64,000 nucleotides of DNA from Methylacidimicrobium sp. AP8 (GCF_903064525.1 NZ_LR797830.1:2232001-2296000); one strand, 5' to 3'; counted from the first letter of the stretch, positions 24,900-29,697 are shown. The notes: generated by a model not told the origin, from the sequence alone. Numbers and translations: made by a program.

Positions 24900-25739
24900 T
24901 CACTTGGGCGACCCCTCGTGCGAGCAAAGAGTACCCGTAAAGACGATCGCAAGCAGGGTGAAAATGAGGGCCTGGATCAGGGCGACCGCGAATTCGAAGA
25001 AGTAGAAGGGAACAGCCGCGAGCCCGCCGAGTATGCCGGTCATGAGCATGAGCACCGATTCGCCTCCGTATACGTTCCCATAAAGCCGCATGGCCAAAGC
25101 GATCGCCCGGATGACGATGGAAAGAGCTTCCATCAGCCCCACGGCAAAGAAGAGCACGGCGAGCGGAATGAGTATCCATCCCTTCATTCCGCCCTTCACT
25201 CCGAAAATATGCACCAGAAGTCCCCAAGGCCCGTGGTGGTATTTCAAAGCCCAGTAGAGGCTGGCGAAGAAGTAGATCACGGCCATCGCGCTCGTCATGT
25301 TCGCGTCGGAGGTCGGCGGCCGCAAGAGCGAGACATGAGGATGCTCGACGGAGTACGGCAGGGGAGAGCCCGGCTTTACTGTACCGAAGCCGATCGTGCC
25401 CACGCCAGGAAGCAATCCGGTCAGATTGGAGACGGCGATGAAGATGAAGTAGGTGGCGACGAGGGGAAAGCACCAATCGGCGACCTTAGGCTCGAGCAGG
25501 CCGCGCGTGAGGTTTTCCAAGCCTTCGACGGCGGCCTCGATCGCGTTCTGCAGCCCCGAGGGCACCATCTCCAACCGCGCGGTTCCCAGACGAATGACCA
25601 AGAAAAGAAGCAGAAGAATCACCCAGCTGTGGACCATCGAGGCCGTGATCGGGAGCGGTCCGACGTGGAAAAGTGTCGGGGCTGCCGGATGAACGAGTGG
25701 GGCATGGTTGGCGGACTCGGCCGTCGCTAGGAAAAACAT
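24900..25739 (-). CDS. atpB: ATP synthase Fo a subunit
   Basis: A 279-residue membrane protein of about six helices with AIALAMRLYGNVYGGE, which contains the essential stator Arg facing the c-ring, and FEFAVALIQALIFTLLAIVF near the C-terminus. ATG 25739 is preceded by AGGAGGAAG at ideal spacing, which overrides the longer open frame running into the globin gene. It is the first gene of the atp operon; no atpI or atpZ gene lies upstream, where a globin gene is found instead. Confidence 0.96.
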   Translation of the reverse strand: MFFLATAESANHAPLVHPAAPTLFHVGPLPITASMVHSWVILLLLFLVIRLGTARLEMVPSGLQNAIEAAVEGLENLTRGLLEPKVADWCFPLVATYFIFIAVSNLTGLLPGVGTIGFGTVKPGSPLPYSVEHPHVSLLRPPTSDANMTSAMAVIYFFASLYWALKYHHGPWGLLVHIFGVKGGMKGWILIPLAVLFFAVGLMEALSIVIRAIALAMRLYGNVYGGESVLMLMTGILGGLAAVPFYFFEFAVALIQALIFTLLAIVFTGTLCSHEGSPK

Positions 25740-25834: not shown

Positions 25835-26419
25835 CTACGCCTCGGCGGAAGGATCGAAGGAGGAGAGCTCGACCGCAACCAGCCGGTCGATCAGCTCCGT
25901 GGAGACACCTGTGGAGCGGGAAAGCACGATCAAATAGTGGCGCAGATAGCTTTCCGCCGTCAGGGCCTGCGCGGTGGCGGCCAGGCGGTGGAAGGCCTCC
26001 ATGAGGCGTGCCGCCTCGTGCGGTAGGAGCCTCAGGGTCTCCAGCAGCTCGCCTTGGAGGGCGTTGAGCAACCAGCCCCACATGCCGATCATCATCGGGT
26101 TGGTGACGTTCTGGCGAATGTGGACGAGGCCGACCGCCGCCTGCCACTGCCAGTACCGGGCGTCGAACGGCCCTTGGAGCGTGCGGCTCCACCAGCGGCG
26201 CAGCGCCTTCTCCCTTTCCGAACGTTCTCCCGTGCTCAGGATCCGCGCCGTTTCGGGATGCCCGAACAGAACGTCGTAGAAACCCCGGATCAGCCGCTCT
26301 TCGAGCTCCGCGAGGCTCGGTGCAAAGCGGATGAGCAGCGCCTCGTCCTCGGCCGTGAAGCGCGCGGCGGGAGGCATCTGCGCAAGTATCCTTTCGGTGA
26401 CTTCAGCAATGGTGGACAT
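25835..26419 (-). CDS. Single-domain globin (protoglobin / globin-coupled-sensor type), intact copy
   Basis: A 194-residue, all-helical cytosolic protein. FYDVLFGHPETARIL, REKALRRWWSRTL and YWQWQAAVGLVHIRQNVTNP match the protoglobin/globin-coupled-sensor fold, with His100 in VGLVHIR as the expected proximal heme ligand. It has no transmitter domain; the partner is probably the Roadblock protein encoded 72 bp upstream. The closest precedent I know is HGbRL of Methylacidiphilum infernorum, a globin fused to Roadblock/LC7, which binds heme. It lies 95 bp upstream of atpB on the same strand. A near-identical, damaged copy lies at 27235-27827. Confidence 0.8.
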   Translation of the reverse strand: MSTIAEVTERILAQMPPAARFTAEDEALLIRFAPSLAELEERLIRGFYDVLFGHPETARILSTGERSEREKALRRWWSRTLQGPFDARYWQWQAAVGLVHIRQNVTNPMMIGMWGWLLNALQGELLETLRLLPHEAARLMEAFHRLAATAQALTAESYLRHYLIVLSRSTGVSTELIDRLVAVELSSFDPSAEA

Positions 26420-26491
26420 GGCTTTTCTGGTTTGTCTCTAGGCGGGACTCTATTTGACGGCGGGCGAACCGGTCGGAAGACGAGGCGCGGG

Positions 26492-26863
26492 CTACCGCTG
26501 CTGAAGGATTTGCGCGATCTCGGACGCCCCTTCCCGGGCCTCCAGGTGAATCAGCCCGACGTTGGCTCCGGGCCGAGCGACGACCCCCAAGACGGCCTTG
26601 GGGCCGGCTGAATAGATATACATCTGCCCCAGGAGCCCGGAAACGCTCGTCTCCCGGAACTCGCCGCCTCCGAAGGTCTCGCAGATGCGCCGCCCGAGGC
26701 CCAGGGCGGTCGCCGCCATGGCCGCCAATCGGTTCGCGTCCCCGGAGTTCAGCGAGTGGGCAACGGGCAGCCCGTCGGTCGTGGCCACCAGCGCCGCGCT
26801 TAGCTCCGGCACCGCCGTCCGCATGCGGGTCAAAACGACGTTCAATTCATCGGCAACAGCCAT
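26492..26863 (-). CDS. Roadblock/LC7-domain protein, copy 1
   Basis: A 123-residue single Roadblock/LC7 domain. The pattern ADELNVVLTRM, ELSAALVATTDGLPVAHSL and a final GLIHLEAREGASEIAQIL is typical of bacterial MglB/CvnB-like proteins, which dimerise and regulate small GTPases. The ATG at 26863 follows AAGGGAGGAGGAG, the same leader as copy 2. It pairs with the downstream intact globin gene (72-bp gap) and presumably with the GTPase at 28362-28871. Confidence 0.85.
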   Translation of the reverse strand: MAVADELNVVLTRMRTAVPELSAALVATTDGLPVAHSLNSGDANRLAAMAATALGLGRRICETFGGGEFRETSVSGLLGQMYIYSAGPKAVLGVVARPGANVGLIHLEAREGASEIAQILQQR

Positions 26864-27234
26864 CTCCTCCTCCCTTTTTCCATTGGTGTTCTTCGATCCA
26901 CGGACCCGATCCAACGAACCTGGGTCACAAAAGCGCCAAGCTAAACGTTCGTTGAGCCTTTAAGCAAGCCAATATGCAACCAACGTCCGGCAAGCGCATT
27001 CCCCGACACGTCTCGGCTCCGGATTGGTGCGAGGGACCTCCGGGCCGAAAAAGGGCCGGCCGACCGGATGACAAAGAGCGGGCAAGCCTCGCCAAGCCCC
27101 AGGGAGAAGTCGCTAGGTTGCCCGTATCCGACCGCGGCGCAAGTGCAAGAGACGGTGGTCCGGAACTCCGCAGTCGCCGGGCCTGCGCGTCCCGGGGTGC
27201 GAAGCCGCGGAGCAGCCGAAGACCCTCGATCCGG
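26864..27234. other. Intergenic region between the two globin-Roadblock units
   Basis: These 371 bp separate the end of globin copy 2 from Roadblock copy 1. No conserved open frame, RNA or hairpin-plus-T terminator was recognised. Open frames on both strands here look like non-coding by-products of high GC. On the minus strand TTGCTT and TTAGCT spaced 17 bp apart (about 26940-26970) could be a weak promoter for the intact Roadblock-globin pair; this is a guess. Confidence 0.35.
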
Positions 27235-27827
27235 CTACGCCTCGGCCGAGGGATCGAAGGAGGAGAGCTCGACCGCAACCAGCCGGTCGATCAGCTCCGA
27301 AGAGACTCCCGTGGAATGAGAAACCGCAATCAGGTAGTGGCGCAGATAGCTTTCCTTTCCGCCGTCAGGGCCTGCGCGGTGGCGGCCAGGCGGTGGAAGG
27401 CCTCCATGAGGCGTGCCGCCTCGTGCGGTAGGAGCCTCAGGGTCTCCAGCAGCTCGCCTTGGAGGGCGTTGAGCAGCCACCCCCACATGCCGATCATCAT
27501 CGGGTTGGTCACATTCCTCCGAAGATCGACGAGGCCGACCGCCGCCTGCCACTGCCAGTACCGGGCGTCGAACGGCCCTTGGAGCGTGCGGCTCCACCAG
27601 CGGCGCAGCGCCTTCTCCCTTTCCGAGCGTTCCCCCGTGCTCAGGATCCGCGCCGTTTCGGGATGCCCGAACAGAACGTCGTAGAAACCCCGGATCAGCC
27701 GCTCTTCGAGCTCCGCCAGGCTCGGTGCAAAGCGGGTGAGCAGAGCCTCATCCTCCGCCGTGAAGCGGACGGCCTGCGGAAGCTGCGACAAGACCTCCTC
27801 GGTGATTTCCGCAACGCTCCACGACAT
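27235..27827 (-). pseudogene. Globin paralogue, frameshifted and lacking the proximal histidine
   Basis: This is a second copy of the 25835-26419 globin. The first 157 or so residues are near-identical, but TTTCC is duplicated (plus strand 27351-27360), shifting the frame so that translation ends at 27330 after 165 residues. The lost C-terminus, SYLRHYLIAVSHSTGVSSE onward, remains readable in another frame to 27235. In addition Asp101 (GTC GAT CTT, codon at 27525-27527) replaces the proximal His. It is therefore either a decaying copy or a truncated protein that no longer binds heme in the usual way. A sequencing error in the repeat cannot be excluded but would not restore the His. Confidence 0.75.
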
Positions 27828-27850
27828 TTTTCCCCGTTGTTTCCCGCCGG

Positions 27851-28222
27851 CTATCGCTGCTGCAGAATCCGGGCGACCTCGGAAGCCGCATCGCGTGCTT
27901 CCAGATGAATGAGCCCCACGTTGGCGCCGACCCGGGCGACGACTCCCAACACCGCCTTGGGACCGGCCGAATAGATATACATCTGTCCTTGATCCCCGGA
28001 AACGCTCGTCTCCCGGAACTCGCCGCCTCCGAAGGTCTCGCAGATGCGCCGCCCGAGGCCCAGGGCGGTCGCCGCCATGGCCGCCAGTCGGTTCGCGTCC
28101 CCGGAGTTCAGCGAGTGGGCAACGGGCAACCCGTCGGTGGTAGCCACCAGCGCCGCGCTCAACTCCGGCACCGCGGCGCGCATCCGGCCCAAAACAGCAT
28201 TCAATTCATCGGCAAGAGCCAT
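27851..28222 (-). CDS. Roadblock/LC7-domain protein, copy 2
   Basis: A 123-residue Roadblock/LC7 protein, nearly identical to copy 1 through the middle of the domain and differing mainly at DQ for LL after TSVSG and in the last helix (EARDAASEVARIL). It shares the AAGGGAGGAGGAG leader with copy 1. It lies 23 bp upstream of the damaged globin and 139 bp downstream of the GTPase gene. Of the two Roadblock proteins it is the one closest to the GTPase and may be its main partner. Confidence 0.85.
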   Translation of the reverse strand: MALADELNAVLGRMRAAVPELSAALVATTDGLPVAHSLNSGDANRLAAMAATALGLGRRICETFGGGEFRETSVSGDQGQMYIYSAGPKAVLGVVARVGANVGLIHLEARDAASEVARILQQR

Positions 28223-28361
28223 CTCCTCCTCCCTTTTTCAACTTCTCTCCTCCCAGAAGGATCGATCGGGCATTGCCCGAATGGTTCCAGAAGCTTGCAT
28301 TGGACGGAAGCGCGTTGTTTTTGGCAAGCCAAATCTGGGCGCACGGGCATCCTCCTCCGGA

Positions 28362-28871
28362 TCACCCGCCATCGATCAATTCGAAAAGGCGCACCAGCAG
28401 CTCGGTAGCGCTCTCGAGATTGGTAGCATCAATCGGCACGACCGCCGCCGGATCCAGATCCAAGTAGGAGGCCACCTCCTTGCACTTCCAGCAGTTCGGA
28501 TGATCCTGATGCGTAATTCCCAGGACCAGAGGGACCGGATTCCGCGAGATCAAAAAGTCATAGATGCGACGAGCTTGCGGAAACTGCGCGGCATCCTTTC
28601 CGGAAACGAGTAGGAGCAATCCCAAGCAGCCCTCAAGGAGGATTTCCCACGCAAAGTCGAACCGGTCCTGACCGGGAGCGCCGAACAGGTGGATGGCATA
28701 TCGGTCCAAGTGGAGCTGGCCGAAATCCATGGCCACGGTGGTCGCGCGATTCGCTGTCGAGCAGGGGACGTCGGTGTTCACGACCGGAGACTGGCTGAGA
28801 GTCCGGATGAGGGTGGTCTTGCCGGCACCCGACGGTCCGGCTACGAGGATCTTGATTGCGGTTTCATTCAT
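28362..28871 (-). CDS. Small Ras-like GTPase, CvnD/MglA-like
   Basis: A 169-residue single-domain P-loop GTPase. G1 is AGPSGAGKTTL (11-21), TTVAMDFGQ covers the switch I side, G3 appears as LFGAPGQDRF (63-71) instead of DTAGQ, and G4 is degenerate THQD (120-123). The TVAMDFG and FGxPGQ motifs are typical of the GTPase of actinobacterial conservons (CvnD) and related Roadblock-linked GTPases. It overlaps the DUF4388 gene by 8 bp, and Roadblock genes follow, so a GTPase cycle controlled by Roadblock proteins is the likely function. Confidence 0.87.
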   Translation of the reverse strand: MNETAIKILVAGPSGAGKTTLIRTLSQSPVVNTDVPCSTANRATTVAMDFGQLHLDRYAIHLFGAPGQDRFDFAWEILLEGCLGLLLLVSGKDAAQFPQARRIYDFLISRNPVPLVLGITHQDHPNCWKCKEVASYLDLDPAAVVPIDATNLESATELLVRLFELIDGG

Positions 28872-29697
28872 ACATCTTTTCGAGGATCTTCCGCAGTCCG
28901 GCCGCCATCCGCGCCAGCAGCCCCGGTCGGGGTGCTTTGGGCTGTTGCGAGATCTCCGGCGTCTGCGCCGGATGAGGAGGCGAGGCGGCCGGTGCCGGAG
29001 GAGGGCAGGGCGGCGGCGGAACCAGCTCGCGAACCGGCGCCGGCGTCACCTCGGCCGGCAGGGGATCGGCCGGAACGGGGAGAGGCTCGGAGGCGGGAAG
29101 CGCGCGCTCCGGAGAGCCCGCGGCCGCCGGCGGCGAGACCGCTCGCACCGGGACGATGACGCCCAGGAGGCGCAGCTTGAAAAGATCAAGAAGCACTTGC
29201 CGCAACGGCAGACCCAGCGCGTCGGCGATCTCGTCGCCCGAGGTCCCGGAACGAAAGAGCCGTTCCGCGCCGACCCAGAAGGCGAGCAGGTCTTCGGTCA
29301 GCCACGGCATGACTTCGGCCCCGGCGCGGAAGCGGGTGCCCGGATGCGGGAAATAGCGAGCGTATCGCTCCGGAGAAGCGATCGCAGCCAAGGCGGACAA
29401 AAGGATGCGGTCGACGGGAATGCTCAGCGGGCCGGGGAGTTCGCCCGCGCGAGCCTCTTCGAAGTCGAAGGCGGCCGATTCGTTGTCCGAAAGCCGCCGG
29501 ATTACCGCGTGGAGCGCAAGAGCATCCGGGATGGGCAGCCCGCTCTCGAAGGCGGAAACGAGCTTCCCCGCCGAGAAGCCGAACGAGAAATGATCACCGG
29601 CGGTCTTGTCGAGAATCTGGAGATTTCCGGTTTGATCGCGCAGCAGACGCAGAAGTTCGGGGAACGGCAGTTCCTTCAGAGTGCCGGAGAGAGGCAT
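28864..29697 (-). CDS. DUF4388 (PATAN-like) protein with Pro-rich tail
   Basis: A 277-residue protein beginning MPLSGTLKELPFPELLRLL, the standard opening of DUF4388 domains, with TGNLQILDK and FGFSAGKLVSAFE following (about 1-110). A helical middle part (about 110-190) leads to a Pro/Ala-rich linker and a final basic helix (PGLLARMAAGLRKILEKMYE). DUF4388 proteins frequently accompany Roadblock/GTPase genes and response-regulator systems. It is the first gene of the cassette and is translationally coupled to the GTPase. Confidence 0.8.
   Translation of the reverse strand: MPLSGTLKELPFPELLRLLRDQTGNLQILDKTAGDHFSFGFSAGKLVSAFESGLPIPDALALHAVIRRLSDNESAAFDFEEARAGELPGPLSIPVDRILLSALAAIASPERYARYFPHPGTRFRAGAEVMPWLTEDLLAFWVGAERLFRSGTSGDEIADALGLPLRQVLLDLFKLRLLGVIVPVRAVSPPAAAGSPERALPASEPLPVPADPLPAEVTPAPVRELVPPPPCPPPAPAASPPHPAQTPEISQQPKAPRPGLLARMAAGLRKILEKMYE

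Follow-up and report, generated by a model that had tools for sequence, protein, structure and literature searches.

Gene content and organization of the locus

The window analysed here, a 64,000-nucleotide stretch of the Methylacidimicrobium sp. AP8 genome, carries a run of six genes on its minus strand. The order is DUF4388, MglA-family GTPase, Roadblock 1, globin 1 (Glb1), Roadblock 2 and globin 2 (Glb2), followed by atpB and then the remaining atp operon genes, while nadC lies upstream of the cassette in divergent orientation (Table 1). The DUF4388 and GTPase genes overlap by 8 bp, and the successive gaps measure 139 bp (GTPase to Roadblock 1), 23 bp (Roadblock 1 to globin 1), 466 bp (globin 1 to Roadblock 2), 72 bp (Roadblock 2 to globin 2) and 95 bp (globin 2 to atpB). 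The preliminary description had reported these six genes, their common strand and the 95 bp spacing, and both coordinates and Pfam matches agree with it. Its account of separate modules in one run with a GTPase also stands, the Pfam families being confirmed and the globin type corrected to Protoglobin (PF11563). The atpB gene is listed as a neighbour, its link to the module being one of adjacency inside a syntenic block.

Table 1. Coordinates of the cassette genes, adjoining features and a Deinococcus gene discussed in the text
Feature	Position	Strand	Basis
DUF4388 (PATAN-like) protein, 277 aa	28864..29697	-	PF14332 and alignment of 14 homologues
MglA-family small GTPase, 169 aa	28362..28871	-	Pfam; GPSGAGKTT, TT in G2, GAPGQ, THQD
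Roadblock/LC7 protein 1, MglB-like, DG pair, outer copy	27851..28222	-	PF03259, E 2e-19
Protoglobin copy 1 (Glb1), frameshifted and truncated, 165 aa	27330..27827	-	PF11563, E 1.7e-23
5-bp tandem duplication, source of the Glb1 frameshift	27351..27360	-	Alignment of the two copies
Roadblock/LC7 protein 2, inner duplicate of copy 1	26492..26863	-	PF03259, E 1.4e-17
Protoglobin copy 2 (Glb2), intact, 194 aa	25835..26419	-	PF11563, E 1e-25; pocket residues; predicted fold
Possible hairpin over the atpB Shine-Dalgarno and start codon	25736..25776	-	Folding
atpB (subunit a of the ATP synthase), opening the atp operon that follows	24900..25739	-	ATP-synt_A PF00119, E 6e-38
Deinococcus protein of ~155 aa	L128:6443-6922; also L130, L131, L132, L140, L141		

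The DUF4388 protein is composed of an N-terminal DUF4388 domain, a helical middle region, a Pro-rich linker and a basic C-terminal tail (GLLARMAAGLRKILEKMYE). Its match to PF14332 is weak (E 5e-4, 20.5 bits against a Pfam cut-off of 25), and its orthologues in genomes G002 and G004 exceed that cut-off. Scored for amphipathicity, the C-terminal tail gives a suggestive but weak signal, with shuffle P values of 0.20 (window) and 0.045 (M. infernorum).

The best Pfam matches of the GTPase are ATP_bind_1 and Arf. Among its homologues, G3 reads GAPGQ, GSPGQ or GTPGQ and the TT of G2 is invariant, the window protein having the GAPGQ and not the GTPGQ form. A PGQ motif without Asp in G3, Thr in place of Arg in G2 and an adjoining MglB homologue are all present, as described for MglA groups 2-5 (Wuichet and Sogaard-Andersen 2014, PMC4316618). 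Both window Roadblocks match the Robl_LC7 domain, and copy 1 shows the Asp-Gly pair that is the other mark of MglB/Roadblock-LC7 proteins. The GTPase tree resolves too poorly for dating or rooting the cassette, and a scan of the contigs with GTPase sequence patterns, which were too specific, recovered only four relatives.

Between the cassette and the atp operon, the stem of the possible hairpin over the atpB start hardly varies among the seven Methylacidimicrobium genomes, and translational control is possible; the folding z score is modest (-0.8 for the window sequence and -2.8 for that of G002), with little covariation.

An intact and a damaged protoglobin

The window globins belong to the sensor-globin family. 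The pocket residues of Glb2 are Tyr48 and His100, which correspond by homology to B10 and to the proximal F8, respectively; in an alignment of 29 globin rows, Tyr48 is present in all 29 and His100 in 28, the sole exception being Glb1. Glb2 thus combines the PF11563 domain with the proximal His and the distal Tyr of protoglobins, and it is predicted to bind heme. An AlphaFold2 model of Glb2, built on a shallow alignment (pLDDT 70), lies nearest to HemAT, Tlr1989 and BpeGReg, at a modest Z of ~9.

Glb1 carries Asp (GAT) at the proximal position, where Glb2 has His (CAC) and the other 27 compared sequences have His as well, and it ends at 165 aa because the 5-bp duplication shifts its frame. Judging from its sequence, Glb1 is probably heme-less or decaying. 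Since pairwise dN/dS is low for every duplicate copy compared with relatives (0.08-0.17), it may either have been disabled recently or be a paralogue that works without heme. The two Roadblock-globin pairs derive from one tandem duplication, and their alignment shows near-identical tracts alternating with diverged ones, a pattern that gene conversion would give. In the trees, the outer genes Roadblock 1 and Glb2 sit on shorter branches than the inner Glb1 and Roadblock 2.

Conservation within the family

The cassette arrangement is found in 7/7 genomes of a genus that is probably Methylacidimicrobium, with a globin gene adjoining atpB in every case. The cassette is complete on one contig in five of them, lacks the DUF4388 end in G003 and extends over two contigs in G006. 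Three genomes have two globins and one Roadblock, three have one of each, and the window genome alone has two Roadblocks, the Roadblock-globin pair being duplicated only there. In Methylacidiphilum, all five genomes carry DUF4388-GTPase-Roadblock-atpB without a globin. The HGbRL protein of genome G012 has a globin domain identical to PDB 3wfw, and on that ground G012 is treated as M. infernorum. Positions 1-45 kb of the window are colinear with a single ~50 kb stretch of M. infernorum, which includes nadC, thrB, a cytochrome c gene, mqnA, thiG, dnaB and many more. In a third genus (G008), the DUF4388-GTPase-Roadblock trio lies at a contig end, and nadC directly adjoins atpB at a different place. 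The linkage with atpB that the preliminary description proposed to look for in relatives therefore extends to the whole cassette in one genus and to the trio in a second, and is missing in a third. No atp neighbour is present at the loci examined in all other phyla (Thermus, Deinococcus and Pseudoxanthomonas among them) or in related Verrucomicrobiota.

All five Methylacidiphilum genomes (L037-L041) also encode a protoglobin directly 3′ of pntAB-like genes for a proton-translocating transhydrogenase, and a further paralogue away from the trio is found beside ispF.

Recurrence of the gene set in other phyla

Beyond the phylum, the nearest Roadblocks recovered are those of Deinococcus and Thermus, at 52-61% identity. 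On Thermus plasmids, DUF4388-GTPase-Roadblock-protoglobin follows the window order, neighbouring genes either overlapping or being separated by a few bp, and the protoglobins there are 34-45% identical to those of the window. In T. oshimai, a PAS-GGDEF-EAL gene begins 5 bp past the globin; T. brockianus has an unnamed gene and a Roadblock between two globins, and the overlapping genes run into EAL and HD-GYP genes. A second T. brockianus plasmid, which encodes a globin and a GTPase without a Roadblock, counts against the module. This Roadblock-less cassette (strain SNM4-1, L135:5249-6398) looks like a deletion derivative, its single globin resembling the two globins of strain GE-1 joined into one.

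In Deinococcus, the trio has no adjacent globin and is often located near HD-GYP genes. In several species, the slot after the Roadblock is occupied by a conserved protein of ~155 aa (Table 1), 75-80% identical among species, for which no relative was found in Pfam or the PDB. The trio also lacks an adjacent globin in Methylacidiphilum, G033 and G105; because Deinococcus and Methylacidiphilum retain it in this form, the globin is an optional component.

Pseudoxanthomonas has the four genes in an order identical to that of the window cassette; its globin is present in only 2/397 sampled genomes of its order, and a plasmid search with this globin gave no match. Among Cyanobacteria, protoglobin occurs in 28/292 sampled genomes, and all four families lie on one strand within ~3.5 kb, in permuted orders, at 24 of 34 protoglobin loci (23 of the 28 genomes); the ten loci without a complete module nearby count against it. 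PDB 8h17 (Tlr1989) matches the Thermosynechococcus-like cassette globin of L148 almost exactly, so that this solved structure is that of a cassette globin. Ten of 18 sampled stand-alone protoglobins of Gammaproteobacteria adjoin a Roadblock, four of these ten also having a detected GTPase. At one such locus (L222, G1433), GTPase, Roadblock and protoglobin are directly followed by putative pilB-, pilC- and pilD-like genes, named from their sequence starts, which suggests type IV pili as a gammaproteobacterial output.

In the tree of single-domain protoglobins, 40/54 rows are Roadblock-linked, and this group is split off from the globins that form part of multidomain proteins (SH-aLRT 99); the globins of the family studied here are nearest to those of Thermus. 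Because the unlinked Methylacidiphilum paralogues fall within the Roadblock-linked group, the globin-Roadblock linkage may be ancestral.

A proposed heme-globin input to a Ras-like switch

Altogether, these findings lead to a model, which we hold to be somewhat better than evenly probable, in which the cassette would be a four-component gas- or redox-sensing module whose heme-globin input gates an MglA/MglB-type switch. A single-domain heme protoglobin would bind a diatomic ligand and pass its state to the MglB-like Roadblock by direct contact in trans. The Roadblock would then set the GTP/GDP state of the MglA-family GTPase, which would act with or through the DUF4388/PATAN protein to generate an output, and the basic C-terminal tail of the latter may hold the complex at the membrane. 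The strongest part of the case is cross-phylum recurrence: the quartet lies in one run in Methylacidimicrobium, Thermus plasmids, Pseudoxanthomonas and Cyanobacteria, and the same gene set in four phyla looks like a real gas-sensing module. Together with the intact proximal His and distal Tyr of Glb2, this recurrence strongly supports the heme-sensor input to a Ras-like switch put forward in the preliminary description. The independent globin-Roadblock fusion HGbRL, encoded in the same family, also argues for it, as do the gammaproteobacterial protoglobins beside a Roadblock, the split in the globin tree and the MglA group 2-5 motifs of GTPase and Roadblock. Neighbouring genes suggest that outputs are swapped by lineage, with c-di-GMP enzymes in Thermus and Deinococcus and type IV pilus genes in one gammaproteobacterium. 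Homologues of PilB, PilC, GGDEF-EAL and HD-GYP proteins were not found in 1.2 Mb (52%) of the Methylacidimicrobium genome itself, the window or the Methylacidiphilum stretches examined.

The globin could instead scavenge oxygen, detoxify NO or act as a peroxidase and merely share an operon with a GTPase trio working without it. The globin-less trios of Deinococcus, Methylacidiphilum, G033 and G105 are what such a role would predict, as are the Methylacidiphilum paralogues, which are separated from the trio and lie 3′ of pntAB or close to ispF. However, protoglobin and Roadblock are repeatedly co-located in four phyla, the two have been fused independently, and the globin belongs to the sensor-globin family, which together make this explanation unlikely. 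It is hardly to be expected that the duplicated cassette of the window genome is degrading and works poorly or not at all. The frameshift and lost proximal His of Glb1 and the longer branches of the inner copies point that way, yet Roadblock 1, Glb2, the GTPase and the DUF4388 protein are intact, dN/dS is low for all copies, and the genes are kept in six other species.

The remaining alternative concerns the neighbouring operon: the module would regulate, or be co-regulated with, the ATP synthase, being co-transcribed with atp and controlling its expression or activity in response to oxygen or energy status. The shared strand and the 95 bp gap in the window would suit such a role, as would the adjacency to atpB of the globin in 7/7 Methylacidimicrobium and of the trio in 5/5 Methylacidiphilum genomes. 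So would a gap in which no strong terminator or sigma-70 match was found, by a promoter and terminator scan whose yield was no better than chance, and the atpB hairpin, which is possible in 7/7 genomes. Against this, the ~50 kb colinearity of the two genera takes in unrelated genes, so that linkage to atp in both is expected from slow rearrangement alone; the third genus has nadC and atpB adjacent and the trio elsewhere; the loci examined in Thermus, Deinococcus, Pseudoxanthomonas and related Verrucomicrobiota have no atp neighbour; and a TTGAC-rich stretch, conserved 5′ of the Methylacidiphilum atpB gene, may act as a promoter in its own right. Coupling to atp or energy status, at which the preliminary description had hinted, is thus not supported: the linkage is family-restricted, sits in the ~50 kb colinear block and is absent in the third genus, where synteny breaks. 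The synteny control and the third genus rule it out as the best reading, and a controlling role is very unlikely. That the cassette lies next to the ATP-synthase genes probably reflects nothing more than inherited gene order, and the ATP synthase is most likely simply the next operon, which the sensor module need not invoke. It would equally be a long shot to propose a widespread undescribed class of heme sensors, in which a stand-alone globin gates a Ras-like GTPase via Roadblock with lineage-specific outputs, and in which the Methylacidimicrobium output is the atp operon, gas availability being linked to ATP synthase expression.

Relation to known systems

MglA-MglB-PATAN neighbourhoods are already known (PMC4316618). 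Most bacterial MglA/MglB-type switches have no known sensory input; with a heme globin recurrently linked to them in the genome, at least four phyla now present one that can be tested. In the open-access literature, to which the search was confined, no paper featuring both protoglobin and Roadblock was found, nor any on Tlr1989, for which the cassette provides a functional context.

Like MglA/MglB groups 2-5, the cassette pairs a DG-pair Roadblock with a small GTPase whose G2 and G3 motifs are of the group 2-5 type; unlike them, it includes a heme-type protoglobin, a globin being nowhere mentioned in PMC4316618, and it has an atp neighbour, which the available part of that paper does not mention. 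Actinobacterial conservons (CvnA-D) share the core of GTPase and Roadblock, but comprise a histidine kinase and DUF742 where the cassette has DUF4388 and a globin; indeed, neither the CvnA histidine kinase nor CvnC DUF742 is present among the cassette genes, nadC and atpB. Globin-coupled sensors such as HemAT, AfGcHK and BpeGReg have the pocket residues and the (predicted) sensor-globin fold of the window globin, with the output fused to the globin rather than encoded by separate GTPase and Roadblock genes.

HGbRL of Methylacidiphilum infernorum is a globin-Roadblock fusion (PMC4476040), and that paper already noted an MglB/MglA-like gene pair in the same species (ACD84470, ACD84469), its available part making no mention of the atp neighbour. 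HGbRL was not found in Methylacidimicrobium. A fusion of this type is also encoded in the third genus (G008, L054:6108-6899), so that its range is wider than the single genus given in the accessible text of the 2015 paper (PMC4476040). The comparison with HGbRL drawn in the preliminary description holds for the Roadblock domain, which groups with the cassette Roadblocks on long branches; the globin parts are not of a homologous type, and their likeness is functional. HGbRL thus joins a globin to a Roadblock within the same bacterial family, and the cassette suggests a mechanism for it, yet HGbRL is one fused chain with a classical PF00042 globin, whereas the window cassette has separate genes and PF11563 protoglobins.
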